Assembly: GCA_902535255.1 (NCBI GenBank)
Contig: CACASQ010000001.1
Location: forward strand, 1-64,000
Source: an uncultured Pelagibacteraceae bacterium
GTDB taxonomy: Bacteria > Pseudomonadota > Alphaproteobacteria > Pelagibacterales > Pelagibacteraceae
Length of the DNA stretch: 64,000 nucleotides
Reading direction: 5' to 3'
Part shown: positions 6,450-14,655 of the stretch, piece after piece
Position numbering within the stretch: the stretch's first letter is position 1
Layout: each line of letters opens with the position of its first letter
Notes under the pieces: generated by a model
The model's input: the letters and a program-made list of their open reading frames with translations, nothing else
Database searches by the model: none
What the model was told of the DNA's origin: nothing
Translations under genes and position numbers: made by a program

Positions 6450-6498
6450 ATTATTTGTATTGTTTTTATTATGAAATTATTTTAAAACGCTTACTTAG

Positions 6499-6539
6499 CC
6501 CTCATAGCTCAATTGGTAGAGCAATTGATTTGTAATCAT
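6499..6539 (+). repeat. attL: orphan 5' half of tRNA-Thr(TGT)
   Basis: gccctcatagctcaattggtagagcaattgatttgtaatca repeats (one T indel) at 14579-14620, then diverges; no 3' half follows. Confidence 0.93.
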
Positions 6540-6653
6540 CAATCCACTGAAATAACTTAACATAATCAACACAAAAAAGATTCAAAATTATTTTTTATTT
6601 CTTTTGTAGATTGTTGGTAAATTTTCATGTGAAAATGCAAGGAAACATGGTCA

Positions 6654-6681
6654 GCTCGCAATGGCTGTTGCCATTGCTCGC
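6654..6681 (+). repeat. Left terminal structured motif (gctcgc a atggc tgttg ccatt gctcgc)
   Basis: 8-bp perfect stem gcaatggc/gccattgc with tgtt loop; same architecture inverted at 14483-14510. Confidence 0.85.
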
Positions 6682-6784
6682 TGGGGGCAAGACCTGTTGT
6701 AAACATTGAGTTTTATTTTTAAACTTTGTTTAGTTTTGACTCCCATTTCGCATTTAAAAGCCCGTAGAGCATCGCTGTAACTTT

Positions 6785-7051
6785 GTGCAAGTGTTGGGGA
6801 CTCATCACGCAACAACAGCTGTCAGTGGACTCCTAATTAAGTTTAAACAGTATGAAATGGATCCTAATCAAACTCCAAGTTACTTTAAAAAAGATACCCC
6901 ACCATCTTCAAATCTAGAACATGTTACTTACAGATCTAGGTTTAGTGTAAGATTGACTCAAACATTGCCAGCCAAAAATTTTTCAAAATTTTATTTCAAA
7001 CGACTTTTCCCTGCTGAAAAGAGATATCACAACAGACCACAAGGCAGCTAA
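6785..7051 (+). CDS. Hypothetical small basic protein (possibly starting at internal ATG 6857)
   Basis: Open frame in left end of element; GTG start in track; no recognised domain; weak RBS. Confidence 0.35.
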   Translation: MQVLGTHHATTAVSGLLIKFKQYEMDPNQTPSYFKKDTPPSSNLEHVTYRSRFSVRLTQTLPAKNFSKFYFKRLFPAEKRYHNRPQGS

Positions 7052-7076
7052 AGTTACAGTTCATTAATAGTAGTTC

Positions 7077-7110
7077 CCTTGCAGTCAGGACTGCACACTT
7101 GGCTGCAAGG
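7077..7110 (+). promoter_or_regulatory. Overlapping, mutually exclusive hairpins upstream of the plus-strand operon
   Basis: CCTTGCAG(7077-7084)/CTGCAAGG(7103-7110), and GCAGTC(7081-7086)/GACTGC(7089-7094) share GCAG. Confidence 0.6.
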
Positions 7111-7124
7111 CGTCCATAAATTTT

Positions 7125-7502
7125 ATGATTGAAAAAGGAATTAGATATAAGGAAAGAAAAGAGCAGCCATCAGGACAGATGGCAAAGACCACTAAAGAGG
7201 AATTGATGTATTATCTTTCCCCTGTTTACGGCAAAGATGCAATTAAAGATCTAGACGAAGATCAATTGAAAGAGCTGCTAGATGAATTAACTGAAACATT
7301 TTACAAAGTAAAAAAGAAGCAAGGTGGAGTAATTAAAGATCCTACCTTTACAAAATATTTTAGCGATGGTGGTTCAGCTGATGACGAGAAGCCGAAGCCA
7401 ATAGATCCATTGAAGTTAATGTTACAGATCAATGCAATGTCAGATGCTGAAAGAGAGCAGCTAGAATATATGTTGGAAAAATTAGGAGTAAAAAAGAAAT
7501 GA
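7125..7502 (+). CDS. Hypothetical acidic element protein (start could be ATG at 7179)
   Basis: Open frame, stop overlaps start of next ORF; DEDQLKELLDELTETFYKVKKKQGG; no recognised domain. Confidence 0.75.
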   Translation: MIEKGIRYKERKEQPSGQMAKTTKEELMYYLSPVYGKDAIKDLDEDQLKELLDELTETFYKVKKKQGGVIKDPTFTKYFSDGGSADDEKPKPIDPLKLMLQINAMSDAEREQLEYMLEKLGVKKK

Positions 7503-8149
7503 ATTATGATCAGGGAATCAGAAGTCTTTTACCATCCGTCAAGTTAGAGGATGAATTAAAAGCTGAAGCTGCTGCCAAGAAATTTGTATTAGATAGACTT
7601 GGTGTTAGCACCACTGCGAAGCCAAGTGTGCAGGCACCTTTAATAATGGATCCCCTAGTCAGCTCAATTGACATTGATAAAATTTTAAGACCCAAAGAAG
7701 ATGAAGCTCCTGATGCAATTGAAATGGATAAAGGATTAGATAAGTATCGTGCTGAACCTAGATACAAACCTAAAAAAGTTTCTGAAAGAGTTAAGTATGC
7801 AGCAATGATGAAACACTTAACTAGAGAAGCAAGAAATCCCACACCACGAGTTGATTTTAAATTGGCTGAATCAGGAAGAGAAGCAGCATTAGATCTTGAT
7901 GGAAGATTAGTTAGAAAAAGAAAAACATTATCAAAGTATTTACCTGATGAAGATGTTGAAGCTGCAATGAAAGCAGGAAACAAAATCATGGTAGACAGAT
8001 CTTCAGCTTCAGGATTTACAACAATGGATCCTGTTAAGTATGACAAAGATAAAGGTTCTTTTACTGATGGCAAGAAACATGCAGCTCTTTCAGATTTTAA
8101 GACTCCTGAAATAAGAGGTATTGCTAAAAGAGTATTGAAGCTCACTTAA
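7499..8149 (+). CDS. Hypothetical element protein
   Basis: ATGA overlap with upstream ORF suggests translational coupling; no recognised domain. Confidence 0.75.
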   Translation: MNYDQGIRSLLPSVKLEDELKAEAAAKKFVLDRLGVSTTAKPSVQAPLIMDPLVSSIDIDKILRPKEDEAPDAIEMDKGLDKYRAEPRYKPKKVSERVKYAAMMKHLTREARNPTPRVDFKLAESGREAALDLDGRLVRKRKTLSKYLPDEDVEAAMKAGNKIMVDRSSASGFTTMDPVKYDKDKGSFTDGKKHAALSDFKTPEIRGIAKRVLKLT

Positions 8150-8717
8150 GTTTTTTCTTTGCCCAATATATTGATTCCTCAATTTTATTTTTAAATCTTG
8201 GTAATCCTAAAGGATCTTCTTTTGCAGGTTCTACTTCAATGTAATCATCTTCAGATTTAGACCAATAGAAATGTTTTTGAAATGTTGTTGGTCTATTAAA
8301 GCTGCGTTCAGGTTTATAGCTTAATGGTTTTTTAGTTCCTGTAACTTCATCAACAATATCTTCTTTCTTGTCTTTGATACTGTCAAAAAATTTATCTACT
8401 AATCCCTGCACTTCAGATCTATGTTTTTTGTCCTGCATGCGATGGGATCGTGCAGCTTCTGCTCTCGCATCATTGATCTGTTTCAATCTAGAAAAATCAT
8501 ATCTTCCTCTTCCAGCTGATCTATATTTTTCTTTATTCTTAATTTGGTTACGAGCAGCTTTCCCTGTGATTGGTATTCCAACAGATGAAACACCTTTCAC
8601 ATTTTTTGCACCAAGAACATTTGAAAATGGTTCAGTGATTCCCTTTTTATCTTTTTGTTTCTTACTATGATCTTTGTAAAGTTCAGCTAAATGTTTCTTC
8701 CATACATCATCAGTCAT
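8142..8717 (-). CDS. Hypothetical basic element protein
   Basis: Long open frame in minus-strand operon; Lys/Arg-rich; no recognised domain. Confidence 0.75.
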   Translation of the reverse strand: MTDDVWKKHLAELYKDHSKKQKDKKGITEPFSNVLGAKNVKGVSSVGIPITGKAARNQIKNKEKYRSAGRGRYDFSRLKQINDARAEAARSHRMQDKKHRSEVQGLVDKFFDSIKDKKEDIVDEVTGTKKPLSYKPERSFNRPTTFQKHFYWSKSEDDYIEVEPAKEDPLGLPRFKNKIEESIYWAKKKLK

Positions 8718-8931
8718 GTGTAATTCTAATCCCTGTCATATTCTTATCGACAAATTCATCTTTATCCATCCATTCAATTCTAACATTTGAAATACTTTCA
8801 ATGTATTCAAAGATGCTATCTAAACAGTCAGGTTGAAAAGTTATGCGTTGATCGTAGACAAATTCATTATCTTTTGGTTTTCTAGTTTCCCCAACAAGTA
8901 TTCTTTTGTCGTTGTAATATATATGTCCCAT
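8710..8931 (-). CDS. Hypothetical small element protein
   Basis: Overlaps neighbouring ORF starts/stops in the operon. Confidence 0.65.
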   Translation of the reverse strand: MGHIYYNDKRILVGETRKPKDNEFVYDQRITFQPDCLDSIFEYIESISNVRIEWMDKDEFVDKNMTGIRITHD

Positions 8932-9452
8932 TATTTTTTATCCTCTTTAGTTGCTAGTTTAATTTTCTTTCCACTAGGCAGTTTTATATTTTTCATTTTG
9001 ACTGTGTATCTAATCTTCCCACTTTCCAGCACATCAGCTTTAAATTCTTCAAATTTATAGTTTCTGTTTTCAGGAAGTTTTTTATTCCAGCCAGCTAGTT
9101 CTGCAGCTTCTACTTCTTTCTTCGCTTCCACTAGGAAGTTATATTTTCTTATCGTATCGTTTCTGTCTTTCAAAAATTGTTGGTTCTGTTCGCCTAGTTC
9201 CTGATTAAGTTTCCATAGCTCTAGGTTATTTTTATAAACATCCATGAATCTTTTGCTCATGGCACAGCCAAGCTCATCATACTTGTTTAGATCTGTTTCT
9301 AATTCTTCAGCTCTCTTCTTCCATGAGAGCATCCATTTTTCTAGAAGCTGGCATCTACGGAATAATCTTTTGCTTAATCGTGAAAGCATATCTCTAGTTA
9401 CATAATTGATTCTTTTACCCATGAAGCTCCTTTGTATAATCTTGTCTACCAA
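8931..9452 (-). CDS. Hypothetical element protein with predicted coiled-coil
   Basis: Heptad-rich RCQLLEKWMLSWKKRAEELETDLNKYDELG...; operon position. Confidence 0.7.
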   Translation of the reverse strand: MVDKIIQRSFMGKRINYVTRDMLSRLSKRLFRRCQLLEKWMLSWKKRAEELETDLNKYDELGCAMSKRFMDVYKNNLELWKLNQELGEQNQQFLKDRNDTIRKYNFLVEAKKEVEAAELAGWNKKLPENRNYKFEEFKADVLESGKIRYTVKMKNIKLPSGKKIKLATKEDKK

Positions 9453-9687
9453 CTACTAGGTTCTTACGCATCCTCTTGGAGCTACCGAAAACTTTATGAG
9501 ATACTTTCAGCCACTGAAACATATTAATAGAAACTACTGAAACATTGGAACCACTAATGAATGCTGCCCTTTTTCTGCCTGCTTGCAAAAATTTACAGGC
9601 ACATAATTGAAACTTATCATTGAGCCAAGCAGCACAAGCACTTGCACATGATTTGAAACAACTTGAAACAATGAAACTCACAATCAT
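9415..9687 (-). CDS. Hypothetical Cys-rich small protein
   Basis: Start overlaps stop of primase-helicase as ATGA; N-terminus SSCFKSCASACAAWLNDKFQLCACK. Confidence 0.55.
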   Translation of the reverse strand: MIVSFIVSSCFKSCASACAAWLNDKFQLCACKFLQAGRKRAAFISGSNVSVVSINMFQWLKVSHKVFGSSKRMRKNLVVGRQDYTKELHG

Positions 9688-11837
9688 TTTGAAAAATCCT
9701 TACCTCTTTGAATAAAATATTTGGCTGCACCATCCCTGCTATTATCAACCTTGACCCAATAATTGTAACCATCATCGTATGAAATGCCCTGTGCAGTCAT
9801 TCCATTTTTAGTTTCTGCTGATCCATTCAAGCCATTAACAAGCTGTCGTCTAACTTTAGATTTGATTGTCTTTTCATCAACATTGGTATCTGCAAATTCA
9901 GGATCTTTCATCACTACCTGCTCCACAGCTGCATTCAAAGTACATTCATCATTTACCATTAGACTTTTGATTAATGGTATTTGGGACTTGGCAAATGCTT
10001 CGTTCTTTTCTGCTTTTAATTTATTTTTAGCTTTAGCAATTTTGTTTATGTCTGAAGTAGTAAATACTCCAAGACTTTCATTCGCTGATTCCCCATCTTC
10101 ATTAACAACTTCAAGAGATACTGAATTCTTTTTAAGCCAATCAATCTCATCTTCTGTGATACTGTAATTTGATTTAGCTTCAATCAAGCCAGCATAATTT
10201 GTAAACTTTGATCCATCTTTGATATGATCTTGAAACTTATCTTTGAATAGTTTTTTAGTCATGGGCTGAATAGCCAAAACAAATCTAGCAGCAGCTACTA
10301 ATGATGATGCACCTCTTGCAGCATTAAGAGCAACCTGATGATCAACCAGCAGCTCCCCATCTGTTATAGTTATCATGCTAAACTTGTTTGTGTGATGACC
10401 AGCAACTATGCAGCCATTATTTTCTACTGCTAAAGGTATTAAAAAATCTTTTACAAATTGCTCCATCTTTGCATTGTTATTTTCATCGTATGCACCTGTC
10501 TGAAAGCTGATTAATGGATCTAATAATATAAATTTTATATTATGTTTCTTAATGGCTAGCTGCAGCTGCAGGTATTCTTTTGTTGCTTTAGCTTCTGCCA
10601 TTGTAAATTTTACTAATTTAATCTGATCTTCTAATCCTCTTATGAAGATTTTATTGTTGGTTTTCTTATGTTCTAGTAGGTTTTCAATAGCTTTGATTCT
10701 TAATCTAATTTCATTTTTTGTTTCTTCTGCAGCTAATATTAAAACATTTCCATTTTCTTTTATTGGTCTACCAAGTATTTTTTGTCCGTTAGCGAGAGCT
10801 GCAGCAAGCATTGCCATAAGAATAGTTTTACCTACACCAGCTTGCCCTACAATTAAGGTTAATGCTTTCTTCATCATCCAACCATCAACAATCCAATGCC
10901 TAGCTTTTAAAGTTTCTGTTCCTGTGTATTCCTCTAGTTCAAGAGCTTCTAATTGTTCAGCAACAGGGGCGAGTTCAAGATCCACTTCAGCTGCAAGATC
11001 TTTATCAATCATTTCGCCTATCTTTCTTTTGATTGTTTCAGAATTTAATTTGTAAGTTTTGTATTGCCCATCTTTTATTTTCTGTATCTTTTTATGATCA
11101 TCAAATGGAGTTCCAAAGTTTTCTACTATCGCATCAATGTATTCATCTTTATATTTACCTGCAGCATGCAGGATAGAAGCTGCAAATAATAATGCATCAT
11201 ATCTATTCTTTCCTGTTTCTAAATTTGTTGCAGCAGCAATGTATGAATAATTATTAAATCTGTTTCTGTGTTTGAATTGTTTAAAAGTATATGGCTTCCC
11301 TCTAGGATCATAAGGTATTTGTTTAGAGTGGAATGGATAATTAATTCCAACATCTGATCCGTTATGATTTGGGTTACATTTTCCAAAATCAATTGTGTAT
11401 TTTTTTTTCGCTAACTTCATGCCAAGATCTCTAGACCATTTGGCAGCTACTGCTACTGGAACAGCTTTTTTAAAAAACATCCATGCGTGCCATCTACCAC
11501 TAGGCGATTTAATTGGAATAGCTTTTGGATCTAATGAAAATAATTCACTACAAATTTCTTTTGCATCTACTTTTTGATCAATATCAACTACTGCAGCTTT
11601 AGCATATTTCTTTCCATCTATTTCAAAACAAAGATTGCCACCCTGTTTAAGCTGCCCTGTAAGATGAAGCTCCCAATCAATATCTTTATTTTCCCAATAC
11701 TGTTTCTTCTTTCCATTAGGAAGATAGCCATCCCAAATTAATCTTTTGTTCTTCTTTCCACTGATTAATTCTGCTATAAAGTTTTTATCATTTTCAGAAG
11801 CCCAATGCATTGTGTTGGGCTTTTGTGTTTCAAGCAT
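9684..11837 (-). CDS. Primase-helicase: N-terminal AEP/prim-pol-like domain plus RepA-like RecA-fold ATPase
   Basis: AEP-like AAVVDIDQ and SPSGRWHAWMFF; Walker A LIVGQAGVGKTILMA; Walker B-like IKFILLDPL; GHHTNK. Confidence 0.88.
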   Translation of the reverse strand: MLETQKPNTMHWASENDKNFIAELISGKKNKRLIWDGYLPNGKKKQYWENKDIDWELHLTGQLKQGGNLCFEIDGKKYAKAAVVDIDQKVDAKEICSELFSLDPKAIPIKSPSGRWHAWMFFKKAVPVAVAAKWSRDLGMKLAKKKYTIDFGKCNPNHNGSDVGINYPFHSKQIPYDPRGKPYTFKQFKHRNRFNNYSYIAAATNLETGKNRYDALLFAASILHAAGKYKDEYIDAIVENFGTPFDDHKKIQKIKDGQYKTYKLNSETIKRKIGEMIDKDLAAEVDLELAPVAEQLEALELEEYTGTETLKARHWIVDGWMMKKALTLIVGQAGVGKTILMAMLAAALANGQKILGRPIKENGNVLILAAEETKNEIRLRIKAIENLLEHKKTNNKIFIRGLEDQIKLVKFTMAEAKATKEYLQLQLAIKKHNIKFILLDPLISFQTGAYDENNNAKMEQFVKDFLIPLAVENNGCIVAGHHTNKFSMITITDGELLVDHQVALNAARGASSLVAAARFVLAIQPMTKKLFKDKFQDHIKDGSKFTNYAGLIEAKSNYSITEDEIDWLKKNSVSLEVVNEDGESANESLGVFTTSDINKIAKAKNKLKAEKNEAFAKSQIPLIKSLMVNDECTLNAAVEQVVMKDPEFADTNVDEKTIKSKVRRQLVNGLNGSAETKNGMTAQGISYDDGYNYWVKVDNSRDGAAKYFIQRGKDFSK

Positions 11838-11839
11838 GT

Positions 11840-12097
11840 TTACCTCAAATTCGCATCAACCATATTCTGTTGTAAAGTTTTAACGATCAGATTCGCAGGA
11901 TAGAAAATCTTTCTGCCAACCCTAGTGTAAGGAAATAATGATCTACCTTTTGATCTTTGTTTACGCAAAGCTGCATCTGATTTCAGATTAATAATCTTTG
12001 CCAACTGTTTAGAAGTAAGTAGTTTGAGATTTCCCTCTCGCTGCATATCTTCAAGTTCTTTAGTAGATACCAACCCAGCTCTAACATTTACTGTCAT
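11840..12097 (-). CDS. AlpA/excisionase-like HTH regulator
   Basis: LTSKQLAKIINLKSDAALRKQRSKGRSLFPYTRVGRKIFYPANLI winged-HTH pattern; start at ATG 12097 has AGGAG upstream, better than track start 12118. Confidence 0.82.
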   Translation of the reverse strand: MTVNVRAGLVSTKELEDMQREGNLKLLTSKQLAKIINLKSDAALRKQRSKGRSLFPYTRVGRKIFYPANLIVKTLQQNMVDANLR

Positions 12098-12156
12098 GTA
12101 TACTCTCCTTTTTTTCATTGAAGTTATTTTTAAAATATTTGTGATCTTATGTGATT

Positions 12157-12193
12157 TCTCTTTTCAGAAGAGATTGGGGCATTGCTGCCCCAA
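12157..12193 (-). promoter_or_regulatory. Two abutting hairpins upstream of alpA
   Basis: TCTCTT/AAGAGA (12157-12173) next to TTGGGGCA-TTGC-TGCCCCAA (12174-12193). Confidence 0.6.
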
Positions 12194-12254
12194 CCATGTA
12201 CGGAGTGGAATCCGAACAGGATCTGCTTAACAGAAAAAAATTAATTTGTGATAT

Positions 12255-12797
12255 CTATTTTGGAAGTAGTTTCTTTAAAGCTCTCTTCTTGTAAATCTCT
12301 AATTGTTTCTTGGTATAGCTGCCATCTCTAGATCTTTTCTTACCGATAGCTTCACGCAGGATTGTTAAATCTTTTTTAAAAGTTTTTTCTTCAGGTGGTC
12401 TTTTGTAGAGTGTGTTTCTTTCAAATGCCAGCAGCTCCTGATCAGGATCTTCATTTTCAAATACAGTTTTTACATTGTATTTTTTTATTGCAGCGAGCAG
12501 CCGATCTAATTCAATTCTGTTTATTCTGATATCTGCTGCAACATAATGTTTTAAAAAATTCATTCTATGGTTCTTATCTTTGAATAAAAACCTATCAATA
12601 ATTTGATGAGTCGCTGCAGGAGTCATCTTAATTTTTTTCAGAAATTTAATTAGATCTTCGTAAGAATGTATTTCATTAAGTGGTCTGATCCCCTCTTTGA
12701 TAAAAGGTTCTAAACCCATACCTCTATCTTTATAAAATAGATCACTTAACGATCCTAAATTTGTTTCTGTTTTTCTTTTTTTCTTTTTTGTCGGCAT
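12255..12797 (-). CDS. Hypothetical element protein
   Basis: Long open frame downstream of int on same strand; no recognised domain. Confidence 0.75.
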   Translation of the reverse strand: MPTKKKKRKTETNLGSLSDLFYKDRGMGLEPFIKEGIRPLNEIHSYEDLIKFLKKIKMTPAATHQIIDRFLFKDKNHRMNFLKHYVAADIRINRIELDRLLAAIKKYNVKTVFENEDPDQELLAFERNTLYKRPPEEKTFKKDLTILREAIGKKRSRDGSYTKKQLEIYKKRALKKLLPK

Positions 12798-12862
12798 CGG
12801 CTTTTTTCCACTCCTTGTTTAACTTTAACTTAATATCAATCCAATTGACAGATGGTTTTGGT

Positions 12863-14350
12863 TTAATCATCCTTACCACCTTTCACTGCTTTTAATTTGT
12901 GATCCTGCTTTTCCTGTCTTGGCGAATACATGTGATCAATATCAAGAGCTGCTTTGTTTTCAGTAAAGTAATGTTCTTTAGTAACAACAGGCGAGCTATG
13001 TTTCATTCTTAAAGATGCAGCTTCAAGACCTTTAACTCTTCCATAGTGTGTTACAAAAGTTTTTCTTAAATGTTTAAAAGTATATTTGCATTTATACTTA
13101 TACAGCTTCCTAGTTTTTTTCTTCCTAACAAGCTCTCTATCAGCTAAACCAAATTTATATTGAAACCTATCCAGCTGCCATCTGTAACTGCTATTAGTGA
13201 TTGGCTTCATAATGTCATTTGATTGAGGAAAGACAAATGGACTCTTCAGATAGTGAGCTAAATCTTCTCTATCGTGCAGCAGCTGCCTTAACCTTTTTAA
13301 AATATCTGCAGCTTCAATTGTAAGTTTTTCAGTATAAGATTTTCTGTTCTTACTATCAAAGACATGCATCAATCTTTTATCAAGATCTAAATATCCTGTT
13401 GCTCCTCTTTCTTTTTCTTTCAGAATATTTGTTGGCACTTTCCATTGTATGCCCCTAACATCTTCCCCTCTTTCCCCAACCTCTACTAGTAAACAATAGA
13501 TGGTCAAAAAATGTGGAGTAAAGTCAGTATTAGTTTTGTGAAGATTGTTAGAGATATAATCTCTTTGAGCAAGCACCACATCAAGATCAATAAATTTTTT
13601 GTCTTTATTGATTATGTATTTTTTCACTCTCAAACATGGATTATTAGAACCATGATAAAGTCTTTCATGACTTCTAGTCATATCCCATTCGAAAGCTACT
13701 GATAGAGCTGCCAATGCATTGTTAGCAGCTGCAGGTTTATTCTGCATTCTCTTCATGTAGATTTCTAGATCGTCTCTAATAATTTTTGATAACGGAACAT
13801 CTTTCAATGCACCTGTAACAAATCTTCCATTAAAGTTGATAGGTTCATTAAATAACTCCGTATATTCTTTGTGTGATTTTTTACCCTCACAAAGTACATG
13901 AGCTGTTAAGCTGCTAATATAACCCTGAACAGTTTTAGCTTTATATTCTAACCTGTTTCTACTTCTAATTCGCTGCCCTGAAGCTCCTTTAGAAATAAAA
14001 GATTTTACAAGATCAGCAACAGTGGCTTCTGTTGAAGCTCCGTTAGTCCTCTTGCTTTGGTTCTTCCATTCATCATAGTTAGCTCTTAACCTAGATTTGA
14101 TTTCTGAAAGTGGCAGCTCATAACTACCAAGTTTCTTTTTCTTCCCTGTTGTCGTTCTCTTTCCATCAGGTTTTACAATCTTGATTCCCCAATGTGCATA
14201 GTAAGTATGTTTAAACTTTCCTACATATAAACATAAACCCTCAATGCCTTTTGCGAAGAGCCAAGTTCCTGCTTTTACTGTCTTGATTGTTTTGTCGAGT
14301 TTATCTTTTGTAAACTCAATTGTGTGTTCTCTATTTTTTACTTTTTTCAT
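12863..14350 (-). CDS. int: Tyrosine recombinase/integrase
   Basis: C-terminal FKHLRKTFVTHYG...LRMKHSSPVVTKEHYF fits HxxR...H...Y catalytic boxes; adjacent to attR; GGAG 6 nt before ATG. Confidence 0.92.
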   Translation of the reverse strand: MKKVKNREHTIEFTKDKLDKTIKTVKAGTWLFAKGIEGLCLYVGKFKHTYYAHWGIKIVKPDGKRTTTGKKKKLGSYELPLSEIKSRLRANYDEWKNQSKRTNGASTEATVADLVKSFISKGASGQRIRSRNRLEYKAKTVQGYISSLTAHVLCEGKKSHKEYTELFNEPINFNGRFVTGALKDVPLSKIIRDDLEIYMKRMQNKPAAANNALAALSVAFEWDMTRSHERLYHGSNNPCLRVKKYIINKDKKFIDLDVVLAQRDYISNNLHKTNTDFTPHFLTIYCLLVEVGERGEDVRGIQWKVPTNILKEKERGATGYLDLDKRLMHVFDSKNRKSYTEKLTIEAADILKRLRQLLHDREDLAHYLKSPFVFPQSNDIMKPITNSSYRWQLDRFQYKFGLADRELVRKKKTRKLYKYKCKYTFKHLRKTFVTHYGRVKGLEAASLRMKHSSPVVTKEHYFTENKAALDIDHMYSPRQEKQDHKLKAVKGGKDD

Positions 14351-14482
14351 TTTCCACTCCTTGTTTAGTTACTTGTAGTGGATCGGTTTCAAGCTGTGAT
14401 ATCTATTCTCAAAATAGCTTTTCGCTTTTTTGTAGATCGTACACTCACAAACCTAACTCTAGATTGCACAAATCAAACTCCT

Positions 14483-14510
14483 GCGAGCAGCTGCAACAGC
14501 AGCTGCGAGC
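14483..14510 (-). repeat. Right terminal structured motif (inverted relative to left; gctcgc a gctgc tgttg cagct gctcgc on minus strand)
   Basis: Same length, loop and flanks as 6654-6681, with compensatory stem substitutions. Confidence 0.85.
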
Positions 14511-14540
14511 AAATTAAGCTGACGATTTTTTAAGTAGGAC

Positions 14541-14569
14541 TTGAAGAATAAATTGTTTTATCCTATATA
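14541..14569 (+). promoter_or_regulatory. Candidate sigma70-type promoter for restored tRNA-Thr, located in element DNA
   Basis: TTGAAG(14541-14546)-17 nt-TATATA(14564-14569), ~9 nt before tRNA start. Confidence 0.65.
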
Positions 14570-14578
14570 TTCACGCAA

Positions 14579-14655
14579 GCCCTCATAGCTCAATTTGGTA
14601 GAGCAATTGATTTGTAATCAATAGGTTCGCGGTTCGAGTCCGTGTGAGGGCACCA
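14579..14655 (+). tRNA. tRNA-Thr(TGT), reconstituted at attR
   Basis: GCCCTCA acceptor pairs with TGAGGGC; anticodon TGT in gattTGTaatc; encoded CCA at 14653-14655. Confidence 0.94.

Follow-up and report, generated by a model that had tools for sequence, protein, structure and literature searches.

The SaPIs and the PICIs of E. coli carry packaging sites adapted to the terminase of their helper phage, and the Gram-negative PICI EcCICFT073 has two cos sites (PMC6739421). The SAR11 satellites described here resemble them in that each appears to carry a version of a helper packaging site and in that some members encode a TerS of their own while others would use that of the helper. Unlike in SaPIs and PICIs, the site includes a covarying hairpin that is conserved in structure, the hosts are SAR11 bacteria, the candidate helpers are lytic phages of the HTVC023P type, and packaging is putative. 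PICMIs, which are satellites of virulent Vibrio phages, are packaged as concatemers, and no cos or pac site has been identified for them (PMC10803314). Like the present elements they are small marine satellites with an integrase, AlpA, and a primase, and the use of lytic helpers would be a further common trait; in contrast to PICMIs, a shared candidate site was found here, and the hosts, the genes, and the integration site differ.

A hairpin at the concatemer junction of bacteriophage T7 was reportedly described by Chung, Nardone and Hinkle in 1990. T7 resembles the locus studied here in having a hairpin-forming inverted repeat by a podovirus packaging junction, which in our case is putative; the T7 hairpin, however, probably serves the formation of terminal repeats, and HTVC023P-type phages are not known to have such repeats; the likeness drawn here is one of form and position. 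The plasmid RSF1010 has two hairpins on opposite strands, ssiA and ssiB, that recruit the AEP primase RepB'. The element described below likewise combines hairpins on opposite strands with an AEP-type primase, but whereas the RSF1010 hairpins are tied to the primase of the plasmid, the hairpin reported here is independent of the replication module and is present in phages upstream of terL. P4, like the present element, is a tRNA-integrated satellite that encodes a primase-helicase and has paired cis sites (ori and crr in P4); the P4 sites consist of repeated iterons, in contrast to the covarying hairpins found here.

A satellite-like element in a SAR11 genome

The window, by which we mean the whole 64,000-nt stretch of DNA that was analyzed, belongs to a SAR11 (Pelagibacteraceae) genome of 0.95 Mb and holds an 8.1-kb element integrated in tRNA-Thr(tgt), with direct repeats at its borders (Table 1). 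With an integrase and att direct repeats at a tRNA, an AlpA-like regulator, a replication gene, and no capsid or tail genes, the element has the makeup of a PICI-like satellite; the search of the element for structural-gene families (capsid and tail) gave no match, and no recognizable TerS was seen in it. Related elements, designated below by our own locus (L) and genome (G) numbers, are carried by the single-cell genomes AG-916-E19 and AG-422-A09, among others. The replication protein is 49% identical to its copy in L010, and the counterparts of the first of the two small genes near the distal end are 20 to 28% identical to the window copy. A small basic gene at 12255-12797 always adjoins the integrase and has counterparts in L010, L012, L013, L023, L118, L129, L252, and L253; a family match was sought for it and none was found. 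It is a core gene of these satellites.

At its integrase-side border the element provides, within 14511-14578, the upstream region and the 5' half of the intact tRNA-Thr, and the upstream region that the host gene originally had remains beside the truncated attL copy. Two words are overrepresented in the element (6539-14578) when the host part of the window is taken as reference, AGCTGC about 12-fold (41 observed against 3.5 expected) and GATC about 2.5-fold. L010 is likewise rich in AGCTGC, which is absent from L024.

Table 1. Position of the features of the integrated element in the window
Feature	Position	Strand	Remarks
attL, 5'-half partial tRNA-Thr copy	6497..6538	+	Distal end of the element; direct repeat with 14578-14620
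Distal hairpin	6652..6683	+	Outer helix CAGC/GCTG, TC/TC internal loop, 8-bp inner stem GCAATGGC/GCCATTGC, TGTT loop; motif of the initial annotation at 6654-6681
Diverged composite pre-terL-like site	6851..6993	+	By the distal hairpin; satellite-only nhmmer profile, E = 9e-5
Box 1, GGATCCTAATC	6859..6869	+	Same box in L013, L024, L118, and phages
AAAAAAGATACCCCACC box	6887..6903	+	At the C-run position of relatives; common to L012 AAAAAAGATACCCCATACCCCC
AT box, GCCAAAAATTTTTCAAAATTTTATTTC	6971..6997	+	In phages usually ~22-43 nt before terL
Two small genes (125 and 216 aa)	7125..8149	+	Positional counterparts in other satellites
Replication protein	9684..11837	-	AAA_25 helicase domain; N terminus AEP-primase-like (AEP match below cutoff)
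AlpA-like HTH protein	11840..12118	-	HTH_17 below cutoff; 45% identity to L010 relative
Tyrosine integrase	12863..14350	-	PHROG 216, E = 1.4e-5; Pfam Phage_integrase, E = 0.013, below cutoff
Proximal (integrase-side) inverted hairpin	14481..14512	-	Stem GCAGCTGC/GCAGCTGC, TGTT loop, outer TGC/GCA; motif of the initial annotation at 14483-14510
attR	14578..14620	+	Within intact tRNA-Thr(tgt), 14579-14655

Structure and covariation of the hairpins

The initial annotation of this DNA had described a 28-nt structured motif in inverted orientation at both ends of the element, and both copies were found exactly (Table 1). They are the only matches to the motif in the window at up to three mismatches (shuffle mean, 0.01) and the only ones in the 0.95-Mb genome at up to two; when all 256 tetraloops were tried, only TGTT yielded GCTC-stem-loop-stem-TCGC hairpins in the window. 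In the circle, as computed from the att repeats, the inverted pair flanks attP with a separation of ~225 bp, as had been proposed. The flanking gctcgc sequences are conserved as described but are not plain repeats: in DNA folding, the flanking GC...GC pair with each other, and the helix extends outward around a symmetric TC/TC internal loop. This outer helix measures 3 to 4 bp and covaries as well (CAGC/GCTG, GAGC/GCTC, AAGC/GCTT, GTGC/GCAC, and GAAC/GTTC); one of the outer-helix covariation analyses used composite letters, with the variable outer pairs of the inner stem omitted.

The claim that the stems covary was borne out by the alignment of related ends. Fourteen hairpins from relatives, 9 of them distinct, show 100% pairing at the five inner positions (shuffle mean, 67%); the inner stem has 16 double-changed cells (shuffle mean, 4.2) and no one-sided change, and the covariation score was reached by none of 500 shuffles. 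G-T pairs are nearly absent from the hairpins. A pattern that fixed only GCTCG, TGTT, and CTCGC and did not require pairing was found eight times, in seven of 397 SAR11 genomes. Pairing is perfect at seven of these sites, where the stems are 5 to 8 bp long and comprise several unrelated sequences. A looser pattern, run on an overlapping draw of 398 genomes of the order, added only unpaired sites. The variable stem, the fixed loop and internal loop, and the near lack of G-T pairs argue, in this small sample, for recognition of a folded DNA strand and not of a sequence.

The proximal stem, taken alone, is weak evidence, since it is built of AGCTGC, which is overrepresented in the element. Background pattern matches in G071, G006, G237, G459, G538, and G110 have unpaired stems and were set aside as chance, as were the two matches of the exact 28-nt pattern in viral contigs (L001 and L002), which lie in GC-rich phage sequence and have an unpaired stem. 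A search against Rfam returned nothing above its cutoff except tRNA.

Distribution among satellites

Every satellite with a readable integrase-distal end has a GC-rich perfect hairpin near that end, always in the same orientation, and almost no other hairpin of this kind there. The loop is TGTT in the window, L012, L023, L024, L118, L129, and L252 (which has two hairpins), TGAA in L013, TGAC in L253, and TGC in L010. The related hairpin-bearing elements come from cellular genomes and from virome contigs; the satellites are integrated at tRNA-Thr, tRNA-Met, tRNA-Arg, tRNA-Val, and other sites, and they contain three replication modules, with an AAA_25-type protein, an AEP+DUF5906 protein, or a family-A DNA polymerase (PolA). 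Viral-contig searches with the window primase or integrase as single proteins gave no match.

The integrase-side hairpin was found only in the tRNA-Thr lineage, namely in the window and, at the same position, in L010, L015, and L022, and is absent from five other proximal regions. The inverted pair is therefore a lineage trait of the tRNA-Thr elements, and the proposal that the two copies function as a pair can be kept for that lineage only: other satellites are without the proximal copy while their distal copy keeps beside phage-like boxes. The hairpin of L022 adjoins a partial tRNA-Thr, and no integrase was found nearby. In L022:1-9386 (genome G029), cargo of the surface-polysaccharide type extends from this hairpin and partial tRNA-Thr to an rlmB-like gene; an element of the same kind may have left this stretch behind as an island.

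Two satellites are circular contigs with attP joined, L118 (IMGVR_UViG_3300025769_000061; 14,031 bp, terminal overlap of 127 bp) and L129 (IMGVR_UViG_3300028925_008470; 9,078 bp, terminal overlap of 99 bp), which is as expected of excised or packaged DNA and only suggestive. In L118, an intact tRNA-Arg gene lies immediately inside the distal site.

A composite site shared with HTVC023P-type phages

On the inner side of the distal hairpin, the satellites share ordered boxes, and the order of a GGATCC/GGTACC-type box, a C-run, a second box, and an AT tract is seen in several relatives. The window has the most diverged copy of this composite site that was found. With L010 left out of the training set of the satellite profile, 6851..6993 was recovered at an E value of 0.002, and a phage-only profile matched the 3' part only (6958-7002; E = 0.31). 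The window site has no second GGATCC-type box, and its hairpin lies ~178 bp from Box 1, compared with roughly 15 to 110 bp in other elements. A TerS gene lies beside the site in four satellites (L012, L013, L129, and L252; Pfam Terminase_2 for L012 and L252), and the TerS of L012 matches that of HTVC023P-type pelagiphages.

In most PolA-type satellites (distal ends of L012, L013, L023, L129, L252, L253, and L026), a short CxxC Zn-finger-like protein starts right after the AT box. Past the intact element, G009 (L026:2057-2361, L023) contains a tandem satellite remnant that has pre-terL-like boxes, a Zn-finger-like reading frame, and a second att repeat but no hairpin.

For comparison with phages, 80 related TerL loci were fetched. 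The phage pre-terL region runs from a GGTACC/GGATCC-type box through a C-run, a second box, and a promoter-like stretch to an AT tract near the terL start, and Box 1 and Box 2 are spaced by 62 to 68 bp, or about six helical turns, in 31 measured phage pairs. A profile of 58 phage pre-terL regions recovered satellite distal ends in 452 kb, most clearly those of L024 (E = 1e-22) and L252 (1e-17) and more weakly those of L013 (2e-6), L118 (5e-6), L010 (3e-5), L012 (2e-4), and L129 (5e-4). In the opposite direction, a profile of nine satellites with the hairpin excluded had phage pre-terL regions as its top matches (E down to 1.5e-16), and its only other strong background match was G009, itself a tandem satellite remnant by its second att repeat.

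Searching helper phages for the motif, as the initial annotation had advised, was productive. A blind motif scan of 2.9 million viral contigs returned 96 stretches. AT-rich contigs gave nine matches, of which eight are fully paired and correspond to seven HTVC023P-type phages and one circular satellite (L118); among the matches in GC-rich contigs, 2 of 87 are fully paired. In all seven phages the motif precedes both the pre-terL site and terL. They represent two TerL lineages, 99% or ~78% identical to the TerL of the motif-bearing viral contig L063, which is itself 59 to 74% identical to HTVC023P-type pelagiphages. The TGTT hairpin was found within 1 kb upstream of terL in none of 67 other phages, which rules it out as a general helper feature. 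Some GC-rich hairpin is present upstream in 41 of 58 phages, mostly just outside Box 1, with different loops and in some cases terminator-like; terL coding windows gave 0 of 58, a rough control in that coding is set against noncoding DNA. The pre-terL site is single copy in the three phage genomes examined (50 kb of two and all of HTVC023P). It is absent from HTVC010P and HTVC019P, which were rejected as helpers for this reason. To our knowledge, no packaging start or virion terminus has been established for the HTVC023P group. In a report on uncultivated HTVC023P-type genomes, the main text mentions terminase and no satellites or terminal repeats (PMC9599517).

A candidate mimic of a helper packaging site

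The explanation toward which we lean is that the distal end of these satellites mimics the packaging-initiation site (pac or cos) of an HTVC023P-type helper pelagiphage, with the hairpin as its outer, structure-read part. It would be a mimic and not the phage site itself because the satellites are without terL and have the site at the element end. Such a mimic would comprise, in order, a GC-rich hairpin, a GGATCC/GGTACC-type box, a C-rich run, and an A/T tract, with a second GGATCC/GGTACC-type box ~64 bp on in some members of the satellite family. Once excised and replicated, the satellite, as a circle or a concatemer, would be recognized at its distal site by a terminase, with the TerS of the helper or, where encoded, of the satellite, and would then be loaded into helper capsids; satellites without TerS, including the window element, would need that of the helper. 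Pairing, loop, and internal loop of the hairpin are conserved although the stem sequence is free to vary, so its recognition probably depends on a folded DNA strand or cruciform and not on sequence. The inverted integrase-side hairpin would be an additional copy specific to the tRNA-Thr elements.

It is the position of the shared site that suggests a packaging role, and the helpers, assigned by sequence, are probably phages of the HTVC023P type; the terminase that would read the site is a matter of inference, as is the folding of the hairpin in DNA. The packaging reading fits because of the terL-proximal position of the site, its single copy, the TerS genes beside it in four satellites, its independence from replication genes, and the circular or concatemer-like contigs. 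Hairpin and site persist across three replication modules. Counting against the reading are the TGTT form, which is not general in helpers, the divergence of the window site, the lack of TerS in the window element, and the remnant boxes without a hairpin in G009. Packaging had been among the roles listed for the motif at the outset, and it now has strong circumstantial support from the match of satellite distal ends with phage pre-terL regions in both directions and from two phage lineages that have the motif ahead of terL.

A wider proposal is put forward more tentatively. The covarying DNA hairpin, with its outer helix, TC/TC internal loop, variable stem, and TGNN loop, could be the outer element, recognized by shape as a folded strand or cruciform, of a tailed-phage packaging-initiation site that is common to lytic SAR11 phages and to the diverse satellites that copy it for packaging; we regard this as possible, though doubtful.

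Alternative explanations

A single-strand initiation site or replication origin seems unlikely to us. The exposed hairpin would recruit a primase or primosome, the AT box would be the unwinding element, and the inverted pair of the tRNA-Thr elements would prime both strands. Such a role suits the invariant loop and variable stem, the ~225-bp spacing of the pair in the circle, the AT-rich tract adjoining the hairpin, the AEP/helicase-type replication protein of the element, and the absence of one-sided (G-T) changes, an absence that fits a DNA fold. The hairpin does not go with the element's own primase as RSF1010-type ssi sites do, however: the site is also found in satellites with PolA or with an unrelated (AEP+DUF5906) primase-helicase and in lytic phages right upstream of terL, and most satellites are without an integrase-side partner. 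The initial proposal of an origin for the primase-helicase is disfavored by this distribution. Our own primase-linked version, favored at first, was demoted since PolA satellites and phages share the motif. Cumulative GC skew in three phage genomes has no clear turn at the site, but it follows gene direction and is uninformative as an origin test.

The late promoters of P4 share the activator site of P2. By analogy, Box 1 and Box 2 might bind a late-gene activator of the helper, so that the genes at the satellite end would come on with the helper structural operon. In many phages the interval from Box 2 to terL contains a TTGATT...TAAAAT-like promoter, and a small Zn-finger-like reading frame follows soon after the AT box in L012, L013, L023, L129, L252, and L253. 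We nevertheless judge this role rather improbable. In L024 and L118, the strand in question has no reading frame of meaningful size beyond the site. Satellites preserve the boxes and also the AT tract, which phages have downstream of the promoter-like part, whereas the promoter-like part itself is the least preserved. The site is also single copy in phages.

That the hairpins are integrase or excisionase arm sites, or recombination-enhancing structures flanking attP, is very improbable, even though those of the window lie within ~70 to 120 nt of att on both sides and L010 also has hairpins at both ends. The distal hairpin is retained across elements with different integration sites and integrases, the neighbors that stay constant closest to it are the phage-like boxes and not att, and its distance from att varies from ~115 nt to ~370 nt. 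The freely varying stems are unlike protein arm sites, and the hairpin is present in lytic-type phages. The inverted arm-site pair suggested initially is further disfavored because satellites integrated elsewhere have no integrase-side copy (0 of 5 proximal regions). Transcription terminators or insulators, which would be GC-rich stem-loops in AT-rich DNA as these are, and of which true terminator-like examples lie upstream of the site in some phages, are highly improbable, since the inspected flanks of the satellite hairpins have no T-run as in an intrinsic terminator, the proximal copy is flanked by int and tRNA genes that diverge from it, and the conserved loop and internal loop are not needed by terminators.

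Implications for SAR11 satellites and their helpers

SAR11 bacteria are among the most abundant in the ocean, and the DNA signature described here ties a family of their satellites to a specific, widespread group of probable helper phages. It points to where HTVC023P-type phages may begin packaging, of which no description was found in the literature searched, and it is a short, testable structure in which pairing, rather than sequence, appears to be under selection.
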